A stretch of DNA of 35,541 nt from the IMG/VR virus record IMGVR_UViG_3300024518_003629, positions 1-35,541 of that record; one strand, given 5' to 3'. The DNA is from a virus. The position numbers were made by a program, and so were the translations under genes. Of the stretch, positions 7,116 through 22,865 are shown one piece after another (the stretch's first letter is position 1; every line of letters begins with the position of its first letter). The notes under the pieces were generated by a model. It saw only the letters and a list, made by a program, of their open reading frames with translations, made no database searches and had not been told where the DNA came from.

Positions 7116-7200
7116 AAGAGAATGAAGGAATTGAACCCTCGCCAGTTTTATCTGGGCCACGCCTTAGCAAGGCAGCACATTACCACTCTGTCAATTCTCC
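7116..7200 (-). tRNA. tRNA-Ser (anticodon GCU)
   Basis: Class II tRNA. Acceptor stem GGAGAAT pairs with ATTCTCT, and the D-arm contains GAGTGGTAA. The anticodon loop is TTGCTAA with GCT at the anticodon positions, flanked by GCC/GGC pairs. The long variable arm is CCAG-ATAAAA-CTGG, and the T-arm is GAGGG-TTCAATT-CCTTC. No CCA is encoded. It reads serine AGC/AGU codons. It sits between a tRNA-like element and the RNA ligase. Confidence 0.9.
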
Positions 7201-7673: not shown

Positions 7674-8048
7674 CTATACCTTTCTACATTTGACATTAAT
7701 TAGAAAGTCTATATGTGAAGTTAAATCTTCCATTTTATCTTTACATAAATAAGTGTCATAACCACTTAAGCCTGCAACTGTGGTAATGCTTTCTTCATGT
7801 CCTGTAAGGATTAGGAGGGGAATTCTAAACTTAAACTTAAGCTCAACTAGCTCCTGGTTTAGTTTATAGCTTTTGTCAGGCAAGTTAACATCTAATATGA
7901 TTAAATCATACCTGTTTCTTTTAAGGGCTTCTAGTCCCTCTGTAAGGGTGTATTTTGATTCACAGTCATAATGGCCTTCGACCTCCATTTTAGACTTTAT
8001 ACCATAACAAAACCCTTCATTGTCATCTATTAGGATTATCCTTTTCAT
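7674..8048 (-). CDS. Stand-alone response-regulator receiver domain (CheY-like, 124 aa)
   Basis: All phosphorylation-site residues are present: acidic pair D8-D9 (IILIDDNE), phosphoacceptor D53 (LIILDVNLP), Thr82 (LLILTGH) and Lys103 (YLCKDK). Length equals one receiver domain, with no output or DNA-binding domain. In bacteria these domains take phosphate from histidine kinases and signal by protein contact. No histidine kinase is in the window, so phosphate would have to come from the host. The gene overlaps the 3' end of the membrane-protein gene by 26 bases and is the last gene of the late unit. A role in late control or host signalling is inferred. Confidence 0.92.
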   Translation of the reverse strand: MKRIILIDDNEGFCYGIKSKMEVEGHYDCESKYTLTEGLEALKRNRYDLIILDVNLPDKSYKLNQELVELKFKFRIPLLILTGHEESITTVAGLSGYDTYLCKDKMEDLTSHIDFLINVKCRKV

Positions 8049-15500: not shown

Positions 15501-16342
15501 TATTTAATTCCACCTTGTAAGGCCAAAAGAGGGAGTAGTTGCTGAATAGTTCCGAATGGGCCACCCATAGCTCTACCCTGTGCAATTTCACGAGCGGAGC
15601 TAATATTGCCTAATGCCTGTTGACTTTGGGCTAGTTGTTGCCCTTGTCCTACAAACTGACCACCGATTGAAGAAGCCAATTGAGGCCCAACGTTTGCGAG
15701 CCCTGCTAATGTACTTATTGGGGCTTGTTGTTCTGCAAATTGTTGACGCCTTCCAGCTAATAATTCACCAAACCTTTGACCCTGTGTTTGTGCTGCGAGT
15801 TGTTGCTGTGCTAAATTCTGCCCAAACTGTTGACCTTGTTGAGACTGAAAACGATTAAAAGCTTGCCCCGCTTCTTGAGAGGCTAACCCTTGGTTAAACC
15901 TTAAAGATTCCTTTATGGCTCTTCCACCTAAAGCCCTACCTTTAGATGCTCCAAATCTTTCCAAAGCTTGTTCACCTTGTTGCTGTCTAAATTGAAAACC
16001 TGGGTCTTGTCCTAATATATCTTGAAGGGTGAATTGTTGTTGCCCTTGTTGGGGTTGAAAAGCTTGCGTTCCAGGTTCCAATGCTTGAGGCTGTTGCCCT
16101 AGTTGTTGGGTTGTTAAATCTTGTAGCGTTTGAAATGCTTGTTGCCCTCGTCTTAGAAAGGGTTGTTGAATTCCTAAAGCTTGTTGGAATTGTTGTTGTT
16201 GTTGCTTTTGTCCCTTTTCAACTGCTCTTGTTTGAATCCTTGCCGCATCTCTAGCAGATTCACCTTCAATTAAATTTTTAGCTATTCCAGAAGCTAATAA
16301 CCCGCCACCAATCGCTAAAGCTGTTCCCGTTGCAACCGCCAT
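15500..16342 (-). CDS. Q-rich ejection protein, P22 gp7-like by position (280 aa)
   Basis: Starts with a hydrophobic Gly/Ala segment (MAVATGTALAIGGGLLASGI), followed by an extremely Gln-rich body (QQQQQFQQALGIQQPFLRRG, DPGFQFRQQQGEQALERFGA), with LGGRAIKESLRFNQGLA and an N-terminal membrane-active helix. This matches the general look of phage DNA-transfer proteins. The Gln runs make the DNA rich in CAA/CAG repeats (TTG/CTG on the plus strand), which explains the low complexity there. Confidence 0.8.
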   Translation of the reverse strand: MAVATGTALAIGGGLLASGIAKNLIEGESARDAARIQTRAVEKGQKQQQQQFQQALGIQQPFLRRGQQAFQTLQDLTTQQLGQQPQALEPGTQAFQPQQGQQQFTLQDILGQDPGFQFRQQQGEQALERFGASKGRALGGRAIKESLRFNQGLASQEAGQAFNRFQSQQGQQFGQNLAQQQLAAQTQGQRFGELLAGRRQQFAEQQAPISTLAGLANVGPQLASSIGGQFVGQGQQLAQSQQALGNISSAREIAQGRAMGGPFGTIQQLLPLLALQGGIK

Positions 16343-16809
16343 TAATCTAACTCCTTAACATAATGAGTCTCTATTTCTCTATACCCTTTTTTTGTATAGA
16401 TAGACTTTAATTTTTCAGGCATTAATTCATTAAGATGAACCATTGTTAATCTTTTAACCCCTAATTCCTCACTGATTTCTTCAAACCTATTTAAAAGCCG
16501 AAGCCCTCCGCCCCTATGCTCTTTTCTCATATACCAAAACGTTTCTGTAGCAGATAGCTCACCATCTAGAATATCTTCATAAAAGATAAAGCCAAACATT
16601 CCAACGATTTCGCCTTTTTTATGAGCTTTTAATATTATTCCCGTTCCGTTATTGTAGAAGTTAATCCAATTTCTTTTGAAAACATCTTCTTTAAATGAGA
16701 AAGAGCTGTTCGATTCTTCAACAAACTCATAGCCTAGAGGGTATAATTGCTCGATATCCTGTACTTCTAGGATATCTATCTGTAATTTTTCATTAATTGT
16801 TTCTACCAC
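16342..16809 (-). CDS. GNAT-family acetyltransferase (155 aa)
   Basis: The acetyl-CoA loop is RGGGLR at 99-104 after beta-4 (SATETFWYMRKEH), followed by helix 3 (LLNRFEEISEEL) and beta-5 (RLTMVHL). This is motif A/B of GNAT enzymes over the full domain length. It sits inside the tail module between the fibre-like and ejection-type genes, so it may modify a virion or early host protein, or act only as a structural fold. Substrate unknown. Confidence 0.85.
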   Translation of the reverse strand: MVETINEKLQIDILEVQDIEQLYPLGYEFVEESNSSFSFKEDVFKRNWINFYNNGTGIILKAHKKGEIVGMFGFIFYEDILDGELSATETFWYMRKEHRGGGLRLLNRFEEISEELGVKRLTMVHLNELMPEKLKSIYTKKGYREIETHYVKELD

Positions 16810-16892: not shown

Positions 16893-17369
16893 TTAAATAA
16901 TAATCCTATAGTTTCCCGTAATTGATATTGAATCAGTCACAGTTGCCCATGTTGGAGTATAATGTCTTACCTTCCCATTTAATGTACCTGTGCTCTTTAG
17001 AACAGGCCCTGAACCGATACTAATATTGGTTGATATATTGTCTGTTTGGCCTTGCCCATCAACAGCAGAGAGAAAGGGTAAATTATTTATATATGTGGTT
17101 CCCGCTGTACTTGAAGTGTTTGTACCTGGAACAATTTTTACATCAAAAAAGACCATGGTATTGAACCTATAATAATTTCCTGTAATTGTTGCCGTCCCTA
17201 CTTCAGTCAAACTCGTAAACGTTGGAGTGAATGATATGACTTGACTATTTCTTTGCCCAAGCATCTTTTCAATACTTGTAAACCATTTTCCCCACACAAG
17301 ACCTAAGCCATTCATTCCGAATAATTGGGATTGAATAGGTGCTGGGTTTATATATTCTTTTGCGTCCAT
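16893..17369 (-). CDS. Fibre or needle-tip protein (158 aa) at the P22 gp26 position
   Basis: The N-terminal 40 residues (MDAKEYINPAPIQSQLFGMN, WGKWFTSIEKMLGQ) look like an attachment helix. Residues 45-158 are a beta domain with FTPTFTSLTEVGTATITGNY and a SISITGNYRIII end, a sequence style I know from receptor-binding ends of phage fibres. In P22 gene order this slot holds the tail needle. A short needle with a beta knob, as in Sf6-type needles, is plausible but inferred. Confidence 0.72.
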   Translation of the reverse strand: MDAKEYINPAPIQSQLFGMNGLGLVWGKWFTSIEKMLGQRNSQVISFTPTFTSLTEVGTATITGNYYRFNTMVFFDVKIVPGTNTSSTAGTTYINNLPFLSAVDGQGQTDNISTNISIGSGPVLKSTGTLNGKVRHYTPTWATVTDSISITGNYRIII

Positions 17370-18517
17370 TAATTTCTTAAAGCCTTACTTTCAATTGTTC
17401 CACCCGTAATAGCTACTTTCACCTTGGATGTAGTTTGAATTTCATAAACTCTATTTCTTGATGTTCCGAGCCTATCCCACCTAACCCTAGTTTCATACTC
17501 TCCTTTTTTACCCATTGAGCGCCAATGCTCATTTCCCCAAGACCTAGCCCCATTTTCTGACCATCTAAGTCTTATTTGTGGGTCTACATCTGGACCAGCC
17601 ACAATAGTGTAATTAACAGCTGAGCTCGTTCCTTCAGTTGTTGTCAAAGTGACAGGATGAACCCCCAATTCTAAACCGGGAACCGTCACCCCTGTTATTA
17701 AAGTGGGGTTGTATGTTGTTCCTGTAACTGCCGTTCCATCAAAATCAATTGTGGGGTCAGCAATTGAAGGAGAATTTAAAAGGTTTGTTCTATCTGAAGA
17801 GGTTAATAAATAATTATCATAATATCTGAAATCATCAATTTGACCGTCAAAATAATTAGCAACTCCAGAACCATAATCTGAAGCACCTACCCTTAAAAAT
17901 CCTGTTGTAGAATCAAAAGTTGAAGATGTACCAGGGCCAATAGTTGAAACATTATCAATATAAACAGTAGTTAACATTGTTCTAGGAGAAGAAAAAAGGG
18001 TTCTAGTTACGATAATATTATACCAAGTATCAACAACCATTGAGCCACCGCGAGCAGTAAAACTAGGAGGAGTATTGGGTCCATAGTAATAATTTATCCT
18101 ACCTGAAGCATCCACATAAAGAGTTTGAGCGTTAGTGTCTACAGTTGTATCTCCATTTTGGAAAATAACCATTGAATCCCTTAATACGTCCATCTTAATC
18201 CAAAAAGACATAGACCAAGTTCTTAAATCATCAGTGGTCCCCATAATTCCAGGGTGGGTTAAAGTGCTCGTTACATACTGAGAAGTTCCATTTAAATTTA
18301 TTGCTTGATTTATTTTACCCGTTACATATGTGGGAGAACCCGAACTCGTTTGAGCGTAGTTTCCTAATGCGTCTGTATCATCCCCGTCAAAACGTAGGTG
18401 CATACTTCCAGCGTTGCCAACTGTAGGTTCTACTTTTAAATCGGTTCCTATTATTCCAAATGTAGAACCAACAATACCCCTATTGGGTTGTAAGCTTGTG
18501 ATTGCTGGGGCGGTCAT
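17369..18517 (-). CDS. LamG domain inserted in a TIG/IPT domain, fused to a gp10-type C-terminal domain (382 aa)
   Basis: Residues 1-30 (PAITSLQPNRGIVGSTFGII) are the first strands of an IPT/TIG Ig-like domain. Residues about 38-248 are a concanavalin/LamG domain (MHLRFDGDD start, RTWSMSFWIKMD, DTWYNIIVTRT, NYFDGQIDDFRYYDNYLLTS). The TIG then resumes (TGVTVPGLELGVHPVTLTTT, SSAVNYTIV, to about 310). Residues 313-382 copy the separate 77-aa gene just upstream in transcription (18517-18750). The last domain should dock on the tail; the LamG could bind glycan. Confidence 0.82.
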   Translation of the reverse strand: MTAPAITSLQPNRGIVGSTFGIIGTDLKVEPTVGNAGSMHLRFDGDDTDALGNYAQTSSGSPTYVTGKINQAINLNGTSQYVTSTLTHPGIMGTTDDLRTWSMSFWIKMDVLRDSMVIFQNGDTTVDTNAQTLYVDASGRINYYYGPNTPPSFTARGGSMVVDTWYNIIVTRTLFSSPRTMLTTVYIDNVSTIGPGTSSTFDSTTGFLRVGASDYGSGVANYFDGQIDDFRYYDNYLLTSSDRTNLLNSPSIADPTIDFDGTAVTGTTYNPTLITGVTVPGLELGVHPVTLTTTEGTSSAVNYTIVAGPDVDPQIRLRWSENGARSWGNEHWRSMGKKGEYETRVRWDRLGTSRNRVYEIQTTSKVKVAITGGTIESKALRN

Positions 18518-18750
18518 TAATTCCTCAATGGCTTAGTTTCGATTGTTCCGCCTTTTATTGCAACTTTTACGGGAGCCGTTACCCTTATCTCATAAATCCT
18601 GTTTCTCGCTACACCTAAACGATTCCATTTTATTCTCTTTCTATACTCACCCTTCTTGCCCATTGGAAGCCAATGTTCATTACTCCAATTTCTGGCTTTA
18701 TTATTTGACCATCTAAGCATTATTTGGGGGTTAGATTCTGCTTCAGCCAT
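18517..18750 (-). CDS. Detached C-terminal domain of a gp10-like tail factor (77 aa)
   Basis: NPQIMLRWSNNKARNWSNEH, then MGKKGEYRKRIKWNRLG, RNRIYEI and PVKVAI. I know this block as the C-terminal end of P22 gp10-type packaged-DNA stabilisation proteins, where it is part of one chain. Here the preceding 414-aa gene ends in GVGLTS-stop and this frame restarts at the overlapping TAATG, in the -1 frame relative to it. By hand count about 48 of 70 residues match the C-terminus of the LamG protein. Confidence 0.82.
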   Translation of the reverse strand: MAEAESNPQIMLRWSNNKARNWSNEHWLPMGKKGEYRKRIKWNRLGVARNRIYEIRVTAPVKVAIKGGTIETKPLRN

Positions 18751-19994
18751 TAGCTTGTTAACCCCACACCTGTTTCCATAACAATTTGTAAACTATTATG
18801 TCTTACTCTTTTTTCATCTGAATCTATGTGCTGACAAGTTCTAATTCTTGGTATTCTATCCCCATTATCATCATAAGTATTTGTATCAAATTCATAAATA
18901 AGAGGTTTACTGTGGTCTCCAACTAATACTTTATTGAATGCTGAAATAGCATTTATTCCTCTATGCTTCTTGAGGTTTCCCGTTGAGGGTTGTAAATAGG
19001 CTTTCTCATGCCAAACCCCTGTAACTTCATCATAACAAAATGTCATTTCGTCAGCTTGGAATGATAATGTATAAACTGGATGCCCTTCTAATTCGTATGT
19101 ATACCCAACAGCATCTTCAGGAGTAGACATTTCATTTATCTTTCTTTCAATTGGGTGGGTACTTATTCTTTGTGATTGAAAGTTTACACTTTTGTAAATG
19201 CTACCAATTCCTTGTTCACTTCTTCCCAACCAGAAAATAGAATCATTCATTTTGGCAGCGGAATATCTAGCCAATATACCACGCTCAATTATAGCTCCTG
19301 GTATTCTTTCCATTGGGAAATCGTTGTTTCCCGTATCCTGAAAAACTTCAACACCATTTGAACCAAGCAACCAAATGTTTTGATTAGTGATTAAGAAAGA
19401 TTCAATTATATCCGGGTTGCTTTCAGCTGTTCCGAAATCTAAAGCGTTCCATGTAGTACCATCCAACAGCCCAGAGATAAAGAAGTCTTGTGTATTAAGT
19501 TGATTAACTAGAAAGAACTGGTCTAAGAAACCTGCATGTGTTGGAGAGCTTGGAAACCCTCCAGAGTTTGGAAAGTTGGTTGTGTTTATTTCCAATAATG
19601 TATTAGTGGTTAAAGTAAGTAGATATCCATTGAACCCATCCACAATCAACAACTCAGAACCATTATCAACCATACTGACAGTTCCAATAGTTGTATTAAT
19701 TGTACCTAGATTTGTTTCTATTCCTGAGCTATTAACCTCATAAAGAATATTTCCAGATACTGTAAAATACCTTCCTTTTGCTGTTTTATATTGACCCCTA
19801 ATCCCTCCGCCTGTAGTCAAATTGGCAAATAGCTTTAAGCCTGGAGTTCCGTACATTATTTGACCATCTGTATTTTGAGACTCTGGAGGAGCGTATTCTA
19901 AATATAGATTTACAGACCTTTGAGCCGCAAATGGTAAACTTCTGGCCTCATAAGCAGGCCCAAGAAAAGGAAACTTCAAGAAATAGTACTCCAA
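18750..19994 (-). CDS. P22 gp10-like tail factor (packaged-DNA stabilisation), body domain (414 aa)
   Basis: The N-terminus MEYYFLKFPFLGPAYEARSL...FAAQRSVNLYLEY and the beta-propeller-like body (GTPGLKLFANLTTGGGIRGQ, NIWLLGSNGVEVFQDTG, FWLGRSEQGIGSIYKS) are characteristic of the family that forms the tail hub between gp4 and the needle or spikes. It stops at VMETGVGLTS, where relatives continue into the RLRWS..G block; that block is the next gene. Overlaps the gp4-like gene by 19 bases. Confidence 0.87.
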   Translation of the reverse strand: MEYYFLKFPFLGPAYEARSLPFAAQRSVNLYLEYAPPESQNTDGQIMYGTPGLKLFANLTTGGGIRGQYKTAKGRYFTVSGNILYEVNSSGIETNLGTINTTIGTVSMVDNGSELLIVDGFNGYLLTLTTNTLLEINTTNFPNSGGFPSSPTHAGFLDQFFLVNQLNTQDFFISGLLDGTTWNALDFGTAESNPDIIESFLITNQNIWLLGSNGVEVFQDTGNNDFPMERIPGAIIERGILARYSAAKMNDSIFWLGRSEQGIGSIYKSVNFQSQRISTHPIERKINEMSTPEDAVGYTYELEGHPVYTLSFQADEMTFCYDEVTGVWHEKAYLQPSTGNLKKHRGINAISAFNKVLVGDHSKPLIYEFDTNTYDDNGDRIPRIRTCQHIDSDEKRVRHNSLQIVMETGVGLTS

Positions 19995-20689
19995 TAAAAG
20001 TCTTCGTCAAGCCCATCAGAAAAAACATCATCAAATATTGTAGGAGTTCTTTCATAATCATTATTAACATCTTCAAGAAGTGCTTTAAGTCTACCCGCTT
20101 CATCTTTTACAGCTTGTTCAACTGGAGCCCCGTATTCATAACTCAACCTAATAGCTAAGGCATAGATTAAAGCATATTCATAACCAGGCGGCAAGCTAGC
20201 AGAAGTTGCCAACGTTGAGAAAGCTGTAAATTGTAGTTCACTTGTAAAATGAAGAGTATTAGCAGTGTTTGGAGTTGGATACAATGTTATTGTTCCATTT
20301 GGATACCCTGGATTATAAAACAATGTACTAGGAATATCTGATTTATTTGTTTTCTGGAAAATTCTATCAAATTCACCTTTATTGACAACCCTTAAACTAT
20401 AATCGACGTTGCTAGAATCACGAATAAAAGCCGATATAATTCGGGTTGGTCTCGTTGTGTCAATAGTGGCACCTGAACCAATTGTATAACTGGCCGTTGT
20501 TGCTACTAATGTATGACTTCCCTCTGTCTTCTGGAATGTCATCAACTTCTCAATTGACCACGATTCTAGAATATAATTTAAAACAATCCTAGCATCTTCT
20601 GATTGAGATGCCTGAAGTGTTTCACCATCCGCTAATATTCCTGTGAGCCTAAAGGCCCTATTGATTAGCTCCTGTGCTGTTGCTGCCAT
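19976..20689 (-). CDS. P22 gp4-like tail accessory/head-completion factor (237 aa)
   Basis: TAQELINRAFRLTGILADGE at the N-terminus, a conserved SEDARIVLNYILESW helix, a middle beta section (PSTLFYNPGYPNGTITLYPT) and LPPGYEYALIYALAIRLSYE fit the gp4 family that closes the portal and begins tail assembly. The ATG at 20689 has GGAG about nine bases upstream; a TTG at 20707 is possible. Neighbours on both sides follow P22 order. Confidence 0.86.
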   Translation of the reverse strand: MAATAQELINRAFRLTGILADGETLQASQSEDARIVLNYILESWSIEKLMTFQKTEGSHTLVATTASYTIGSGATIDTTRPTRIISAFIRDSSNVDYSLRVVNKGEFDRIFQKTNKSDIPSTLFYNPGYPNGTITLYPTPNTANTLHFTSELQFTAFSTLATSASLPPGYEYALIYALAIRLSYEYGAPVEQAVKDEAGRLKALLEDVNNDYERTPTIFDDVFSDGLDEDFYWSTIS

Positions 20690-21146
20690 CTTCATCATCT
20701 CCTTCAATAAGGATTTCAGTTTGTTTTATCATATTCAATAAGGAAAACTTTTTATCTAAATCTTCACCTAAATGTACAGAAACAAGCTTTTCCAACTCGG
20801 ATTTCTTAGCACTCAATTCATCACCTCTAAAGGTTTTGCTATCAACAGAGTCTTTAAAATCATCCAGCCATTGAAGAGTTTTTACCGAACTAGCTAAACT
20901 AGTCACTTCAACCTTAGGAGCTTCTTTAGCTTTTTTTAATTCAGCTTCAAATATTCTGCTTTCTTTAGGGCTTTTCTTATAGTTCTTTGAAACGTATTCA
21001 TCGTAAGATGCTTCAGTTTCAATGAGAACACTATCACATATCCCACTAACTTCTCTATGAAGCCACTTTCGTTCAAAGCTCTCTTCTCTTAAGAGAAATT
21101 CTTTTTTAAACAACTCTTTCAACTTTAAATATTCTTGGTCTGTCAT
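20658..21146 (-). CDS. Hypothetical helical late protein (162 aa)
   Basis: First gene after the terminator-like hairpin at 21160-21187. Start MTDQEYLKLKELFKKEFLLR with AGGAATAGA upstream. Fully helical, Lys/Glu-rich, ending in a low-complexity GDDEDGSNSTGANQ tail. It overlaps the gp4-like gene by 32 bases. Its place between decoration and head-completion genes suggests head or neck assembly; no family seen. Confidence 0.75.
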   Translation of the reverse strand: MTDQEYLKLKELFKKEFLLREESFERKWLHREVSGICDSVLIETEASYDEYVSKNYKKSPKESRIFEAELKKAKEAPKVEVTSLASSVKTLQWLDDFKDSVDSKTFRGDELSAKKSELEKLVSVHLGEDLDKKFSLLNMIKQTEILIEGDDEDGSNSTGANQ

Positions 21147-21674: not shown

Positions 21675-22865
21675 TTATGCTCCCCAAAGCCTTACAGCCC
21701 AACGAGGAATTACTGTTATGAAACCATATAAAATATCTAAGCGGTAAAGCATGTCATCATTTTTACCGTCCCAAACTTTGGCCAATCGCATAGAGATACC
21801 GTCAAAATTCATCCTTGACTCGAAATCTGTCATACCTGGAAGAGGTAAATCAACAGTTGCAATAGTAAAGGCTTTTTTATGATAAATCATGTTTTGGTCA
21901 AAAGCAGTTGAATTAGTTCCTAACTCAGCAATAACAGCACTAGAAGCTGGAAGAGCATCAACATTTTGAAGAGGTCCCTCAGCATACATGGCAGGGTCAA
22001 CAGAAACTGTTCCCGCTCCGCCTGCATAGTCAGCCGTAACAGTAAATTCTTTCAATCCGCCAGTAGTTTGTTTACTAAGTGGATTAACTTGGTTTACTGC
22101 TGCAACAGTAAGGATATCACCTTTTGTGAAGGTTCCCGTTCCTGTTGTTACTGATAAGGTACTAGCCCCTTCAGAAGCTGCCGTATTTATAACATAGTTC
22201 CCATCTCCAGTTCCAACCGTATGACGATTAACATTCACAGACTCTGCAAATTCTAATCCAGCCATTGTTCCCATGTTACCAGTAACAAATTGATTTCTCA
22301 ATTGGCTTCTGTCTTCGAAACGATTTGTTCCAAGACCGTTAACTAGGGCACTCATTCCATCAGGAGAAAGAACCGCTGAGCGTTCAGTTTGAGGGGTTGA
22401 ATTTTTTGTCAAATATGCTTTTGCATCTGTAAAAGGAAGCATAGTTGCTGGATGAGTTCCGGGTGTTCCTGTATGGTTTGCCACTTGTTGGTAAGCATCT
22501 GTAAAGCATTCATATTCAATCCCACTAGATAAAGTATTCATTGCGGGAGTAATAATTTGTTCGCTAAACATTGAAATGTCTTGCTCTAGTTCTGCCGTTG
22601 AGAAACGAAGGTCAACACCGCGATACCTGGTTTTACTCAAAGTAACACTTTGTTCCTTGTTGTCTTGTACGTCCACTGTTTTACCTGAACGCATTTTATA
22701 TTCTTTTGGCACCTGAATCTTAACAAAATCACCTGCTTTTGCACCTGCTACTTCATAGGAGTCATCATACTCTCTACCAATACCTTGCAAAAAGGGTGTA
22801 TTGTTCTTAAACTGGGCCAAACCTTCTTTGACAATTATATCTGCCGTGATTTGTTCGTTAGCCAT
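21675..22865 (-). CDS. Major capsid protein, P22 gp5-like coat (396 aa)
   Basis: P22 coat hallmarks: the N-terminal ADIIVKEGLAQFKNNTPFLQ arm, VQDNKEQSVTLSKTRYRGVD, FTDAYQQVANHTGTP, an Ig-like insertion region (about 220-290) and the end LPLPGMTDFESRMNFDGISM then DILYGFITVIPRWAVRLWG. Close to the usual 400-430 residues. It forms the T=7 HK97-fold shell on the scaffold encoded just upstream. Start at 22865 with AGAGGCTTAA before it. Confidence 0.95.
   Translation of the reverse strand: MANEQITADIIVKEGLAQFKNNTPFLQGIGREYDDSYEVAGAKAGDFVKIQVPKEYKMRSGKTVDVQDNKEQSVTLSKTRYRGVDLRFSTAELEQDISMFSEQIITPAMNTLSSGIEYECFTDAYQQVANHTGTPGTHPATMLPFTDAKAYLTKNSTPQTERSAVLSPDGMSALVNGLGTNRFEDRSQLRNQFVTGNMGTMAGLEFAESVNVNRHTVGTGDGNYVINTAASEGASTLSVTTGTGTFTKGDILTVAAVNQVNPLSKQTTGGLKEFTVTADYAGGAGTVSVDPAMYAEGPLQNVDALPASSAVIAELGTNSTAFDQNMIYHKKAFTIATVDLPLPGMTDFESRMNFDGISMRLAKVWDGKNDDMLYRLDILYGFITVIPRWAVRLWGA

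Follow-up and report, generated by a model that had tools for sequence, protein, structure and literature searches.

A P22-like tail hub with its C-terminal domain in a separate gene and a second copy of that domain on a LamG protein

Two questions are raised by the locus described here: whether a P22-like virus of bacteria encodes its tail hub in two pieces, and what a second copy of the smaller piece, joined to a lectin-like domain, might do in the same genome. The window, by which we mean the whole stretch of DNA analysed, is an entire virus record of 35.5 kb with 36% GC. Its - strand carries a P22-like structural module in which terminase, portal, scaffold, P22-type coat (21675-22865; PF11651, E 1.5e-35) and tail adaptor are followed by the split-hub genes. 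The adaptor (19976..20707, - strand, pI 4.7), assigned to the gp4/SU10-adaptor type from PF24175 (E 3.5e-10) and its charge, directly adjoins these genes and is the presumed docking partner of the C-terminal domain of the hub. As the first-pass annotation had it, three ORFs lie next to each other on this strand: a hub body, a free domain of 77 residues (free77) and a LamG protein. The next gene downstream of the LamG gene (16893..17369, - strand) encodes a 158-aa protein, p158, that matches phrog_13144 (E 3e-4); its likeness to the tail proteins usually found beside gp10 is at the level of motifs alone, and with a profile E of 0.48 we do not claim it as their homologue. A GNAT acetyltransferase gene lies within the tail operon at 16342-16809, and an annotated acetyltransferase gene also directly follows the hub in Xanthomonas phage PBR31. 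Elsewhere, the window contains a tRNA gene (7116-7200, - strand) and a 124-aa ORF (7674-8048) that resembles a two-component receiver domain in its sequence (IILIDDNEGF...LIILDVNLPD). Close relatives identified through the terminase showed no gp10 in the stretches examined.

The 77-aa gene had been read as the domain that normally ends gp10-like proteins, and the body as stopping just before it; profile searches bear out both readings. The body (18750..19994, - strand, 414 aa as an ORF) matches PHROG 578, the head closure Hc3 or gp10 family, over columns 5-400 (E 1.6e-96), the propeller region included, and also scores against PF11134 (E 3.6e-7). Judging from the family alignment, the TTG at 19979, and not position 19994, is the probable translation start, which gives a protein of 409 aa (MKFPFLG...). 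free77 (18517..18750, - strand) covers columns 402-472 of the same family (E 8e-17), the two matches parting exactly at the border between body and C-terminal domain. The same alignment places the end of the body within a linker loop, where it reads GVGL-TS against the GVGL-TTGQGSDP of the family. The stop codon of the body and the start codon of free77 share one nucleotide in the motif TAATG (18748..18752, - strand). This 1-nt overlap recurs between free77 and the LamG gene (18515..18519, - strand), between the LamG gene and the gene after it, and at several further junctions of the operon.

Is such a split peculiar to the window? With the window's own C-terminal domain as bait, 205 full relatives (175 + 30) were recovered, all of them single ORFs. 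This bait was biased: divergent C-terminal domains gave split loci, and the notion that the split is unique to the window was rejected. The first other case was found through PHROG 19101, whose last 70 columns match the trans-encoded domains better than PHROG 578 does. It consists of a free 74-aa C-terminal domain whose gene directly follows that of a 961-aa hub; this hub contains an Ig domain and apparent lectin-type repeats. The 74-aa domain in turn served as bait for many more. In the final non-redundant survey of 271 other loci, the hub is a single ORF in 232, while the C-terminal domain occupies a separate ORF in 38, either as a small gene overlapping or adjacent to that of the body or attached to another domain (L264:6877-9986 (G367:C20), L265-L270, L274-L279, L281-L284, L286, L287, L291-L303, L306, L307, L309-L313, L315-L317 and L321). 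What had been taken for a local oddity is thus recurrent, and with 38 further loci split, the presence of body and C-terminal domain in one chain is no requirement in the wider PHROG 578 family. The free domains are proteins of about 68-79 aa, one of them cut by a contig end, and in 31 of the 31 examined the start codon lies no more than 13 nt from the stop codon of the body; the overlaps are of the ATGA/GTGA type in 12, of 1 nt in seven and longer in four. The split of the hub in the window is genuine, as the first-pass annotation had held, and it is not unique.

The surveyed loci also show what can be added at this seam. In 93 of the 232 one-ORF hubs, more than 25 aa are inserted just before the C-terminal domain. 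In most split loci the body extends beyond the propeller by 90-570 aa, which comprise He_PIG Ig domains, WD40-like propellers and a weak LamG match; an extended body is paired with a free C-terminal domain in L264-L270, L274-L279, L281-L284, L310 and others. Three loci follow another pattern (L295:3931-5204, L297:3916-5198 and L302:3928-5195). They have a short body like that of the window and no free copy; their C-terminal domain is found on a 213-217 aa protein, behind a domain of about 140 aa and a Pro-rich linker, and the two halves of the hub are separated by a gene for a glycosyltransferase, of family 2 in L295. A C-terminal domain supplied in trans can therefore ride on a foreign domain, as it does in the LamG protein of the window. 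These relatives, in which the body or the trans C-terminal domain bears a foreign domain, support the earlier suggestion of a route to new tail appendages. Insertions of another sort, about 150-320 aa near body column 122-160, were seen in the one-piece hubs of L192:1988-4219, L195:2093-4219, L218:1829-4198 and L048:2087-4216; they are placed much as T7 and SU10 place nozzle domains within the propeller, and some match tail fiber or decoration families.

On a 136-row tree of bodies, the split or intact state changes at least nine times, and seven of these changes are required by branches with good support; they may run in either direction, as gains or losses of the split. The window falls among 79 intact rows (SH-aLRT 97), with no split hub among its near relatives, and its C-terminal domains are 57% identical to fused domains against 40% to trans ones when two contig-edge fragments are omitted. 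We favor, short of proof, an independent fission in the lineage of the window on the strength of these sequence comparisons; in an AU test on an 83-row tree, a shared origin of the window and the other splits was not rejected (p 0.35). One-piece hubs nested within a split-hub clade were observed in L271-L273, which suggests re-fusion or repeated fission there.

The protein encoded after free77 (17369..18517, - strand, 382 aa) is composite. Its LamG (concanavalin A-like) domain, residues 77-237 (17807..18289, - strand), scores 49.6 bits against PF13385 (E 6.2e-13), well above the cut-off of 27.6. The flanking segments, residues about 4-36 (18410..18508, - strand) and about 255-304 (17606..17755, - strand), each fall below the PF01833 cut-off when searched alone (E 0.012 and 0.0067, respectively), but score 28.5 bits when joined (E 1.5e-6, columns 1-83 of 84, cut-off 20.9). 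Since the joined flanks amount to a near-complete TIG domain, the protein is best described as a TIG domain with a nested LamG domain, followed by the second C-terminal domain at residues 308-381 (17375..17596, - strand), of which residues 310-378 match PHROG 578 columns 402-470 (E 1.5e-13). A model of the TIG and LamG part was of low confidence (pLDDT <50) and was left unused; no homologues of the LamG part were found in annotated phages.

The PHROG 578 C-terminal domain is thus present twice in this genome, and the first-pass count of about 48 matching positions in 70 was correct: free77 and the LamG-borne copy align without gaps and share 49 of 77 residues, and their alignment score of 277 lies far above the highest value reached in 1,000 shuffles, 47. 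In a tree of 75 C-terminal domains the two are sisters (support 100/98), on equal branches of 0.34 and 0.35 above a long common stem, which places the duplication within the lineage of the window. Third codon positions are 44% identical and dS is saturated, against a dN of 0.27 and 64% protein identity, and the conserved residues of the domain are present in both copies. The duplication is therefore old, and both copies have long been maintained under purifying selection. Two copies in one genome were seen in the window only, and a free copy alongside a LamG-borne one is without independent precedent among the 271 other loci.

What does this domain do? Structural matching assigns the gp10 C-terminal fold to both copies. 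A model of free77 built from 58 sequences (pLDDT 77) finds its five strongest PDB matches in C-terminal segments of hubs of the gp10 family (P22 gp10 403-472, Pan3 367-440, P22 again in 9jg6, Sf6 gp8 371-472 and Pam1 363-436), with Z scores of 5.3-5.6 against 4.0 for the best unrelated entry. The model of the LamG-borne copy (pLDDT about 90) matches solved C-termini of the family at Z 5.4-5.7, among them Sf6 gp8 406-472 (Z 5.7, rmsd 1.7) and Pan3 372-440. The match of free77 to the platform of T7 gp12 (669-790) is weak, at Z 3.2, and within background. In T7, the platform is electropositive and the adaptor electronegative; fibers dock between propeller and platform, a 6-fold nozzle meets a 12-fold adaptor, and each platform contacts two adaptor subunits differently (PMC6702177). 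The platform of SU10 gp17 is made from both ends of the chain and likewise contacts two adaptor subunits (PMC9509320). The charges in the window fit the T7 pattern: free77 has a net charge of +11 (family mean +2, maximum +9) and the LamG-borne copy of +6, while the adaptor stands at -11 and the body at -17. By analogy from T7 and SU10 to gp10, the C-terminal domain is probably the platform half through which the hub is seated in the adaptor ring. The "docking domain" of the first-pass annotation thus has indirect support, from the alignment of free77 with solved gp10-family C-termini and from the adaptor contacts made by the equivalent C-terminal platforms of T7 gp12 and SU10 gp17.

These elements can be assembled into a model that we consider the likely one. 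The C-terminal domain would act as a plug that packs on the N-terminal strands of the body, contacts the negatively charged adaptor ring, and so completes the platform and seats the hub on the adaptor. The seam ahead of the plug tolerates inserts in one-piece hubs, and cutting the chain at this point would leave body or plug free to gain new domains. In the window, free77 would be made as a separate chain from its coupled gene and join the body non-covalently, as a platform half supplied in trans. After the duplication of its gene, the second copy was fused to a TIG domain with nested LamG, which would have left the phage with a bare plug and a second one bearing a TIG-LamG head. The LamG protein would use its own platform half to dock where hub and adaptor meet, either in place of free77 in some of the six subunits or in addition to it, and would thereby display a lectin-like domain, possibly one that binds sugar, at the tail collar. 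One could go further, more speculatively, and imagine that P22-like phages repeatedly turn the adaptor-docking half of their hub into an exchangeable plug, and that the bare and lectin-bearing plugs of the window give rise to mixed hexameric collars, within a particle or across the population.

The most serious objection to this model is that the LamG protein might stay outside the virion, either as a by-product of recombination or as a competitor or chaperone that acts on the hub during assembly only. Its confinement to the one genome with two C-terminal domains and the want of LamG-part homologues in annotated phages would suit such a fate. We nonetheless regard it as unlikely: saturated third positions together with 64% protein identity and a dN of 0.27 speak for long purifying selection on the domain, the gene is part of the tail operon and is coupled to its neighbours by overlaps, and in L295, L297 and L302 the protein combining a foreign domain with the C-terminal domain bears the sole copy and so must supply the hub function. 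Alternatively, the LamG protein could dock elsewhere than free77, for instance on adaptor faces left free by a ring of 12 adaptors meeting six hubs, and the two would not compete. The symmetry mismatch of T7, with a platform that touches two adaptor subunits differently (PMC6702177), offers room for this, and the charges of the two copies are unequal (+11 and +6); the conserved residues, however, are kept in both, a pattern most simply explained by shared contact surfaces, and we hold separate sites to be rather improbable. As to the split itself, the overlap of the two frames at the junction might allow body and free77 to be made normally as one chain by programmed frameshifting. This we consider very doubtful, as the junction (GTG GGG TTA ACA AGC TAA TG) is without a classic -1 slippery heptamer and in most other split phages the C-terminal domain gene is preceded by a body with 90-570 aa of additional domains. 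That a normal one-piece gp10 was broken by a frameshift error of sequencing or assembly is scarcely credible: an indel of one base would be enough to unite the frames and the near relatives on the tree are all unsplit, but the TAATG overlap is of the kind found at many junctions of this operon, joining the frames leaves 2-3 residues in excess of the family loop, and the 38 other split loci have similar overlaps.

These findings suggest that the P22-like tail hub is modular at one precise seam, which bears inserts in 93 of 232 one-piece hubs and is cut in at least 38 loci. Such modularity, if true, would explain how podophages acquire Ig, propeller and lectin appendages while the DNA channel stays undisturbed; the trans C-terminal domains of the 38 loci, in particular, suggest a modular way to hang new parts on a phage tail. 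A rule for annotation can also be drawn, namely that orphan genes of 70-80 aa that directly follow gp10, and that probably carry the label hypothetical, encode half of the hub. A phage with two copies, for its part, would provide a direct test of whether a symmetric hexameric tail can hold two kinds of subunit. The kind of hub is already known; no split hub was found in the annotated phage collection searched, and we found no published description of one in the open-licence literature, so that the trans plug and the duplicated, lectin-headed plug appear to be new within that scope.

Comparison with known systems places the window hub closest to those of P22 (gp10), Sf6 (gp8), Pam1 and Pan3 (PF11134, PHROG 578), with which it shares the body profile, the position of the gene after the adaptor and the fold of the C-terminal domain. 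Those hubs are made as one chain, whereas the window has a separate gene for the C-terminal domain and a duplicate of it on the LamG protein. The nozzles of T7 (gp12) and SU10 (gp17), likened here to the window hub, combine a propeller with a C-terminal adaptor-binding platform and showed no link to it in sequence in this analysis. PHROG 19101 resembles the C-terminal domains of the window in its last 70 columns and matches tail proteins of the GTA TIM-barrel type in its first 518; the profile, encountered via L223, L233-L250 and L252, combines a GTA TIM-barrel region (columns 8-518) with a gp10 C-terminal domain (519-595), hinting at another plug-bearing protein, and no full-length member with both parts was found in about 960 genomes and six GTA-TIM phage loci. 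The other split hubs (L264 and others, L295/L297/L302) have, like the window, a coupled small gene for a trans C-terminal domain or that domain on another one. They differ from it in having a single copy each and, for the most part, a body with an additional Ig, WD40-like or LamG-like part, whereas the body of the window is unextended.
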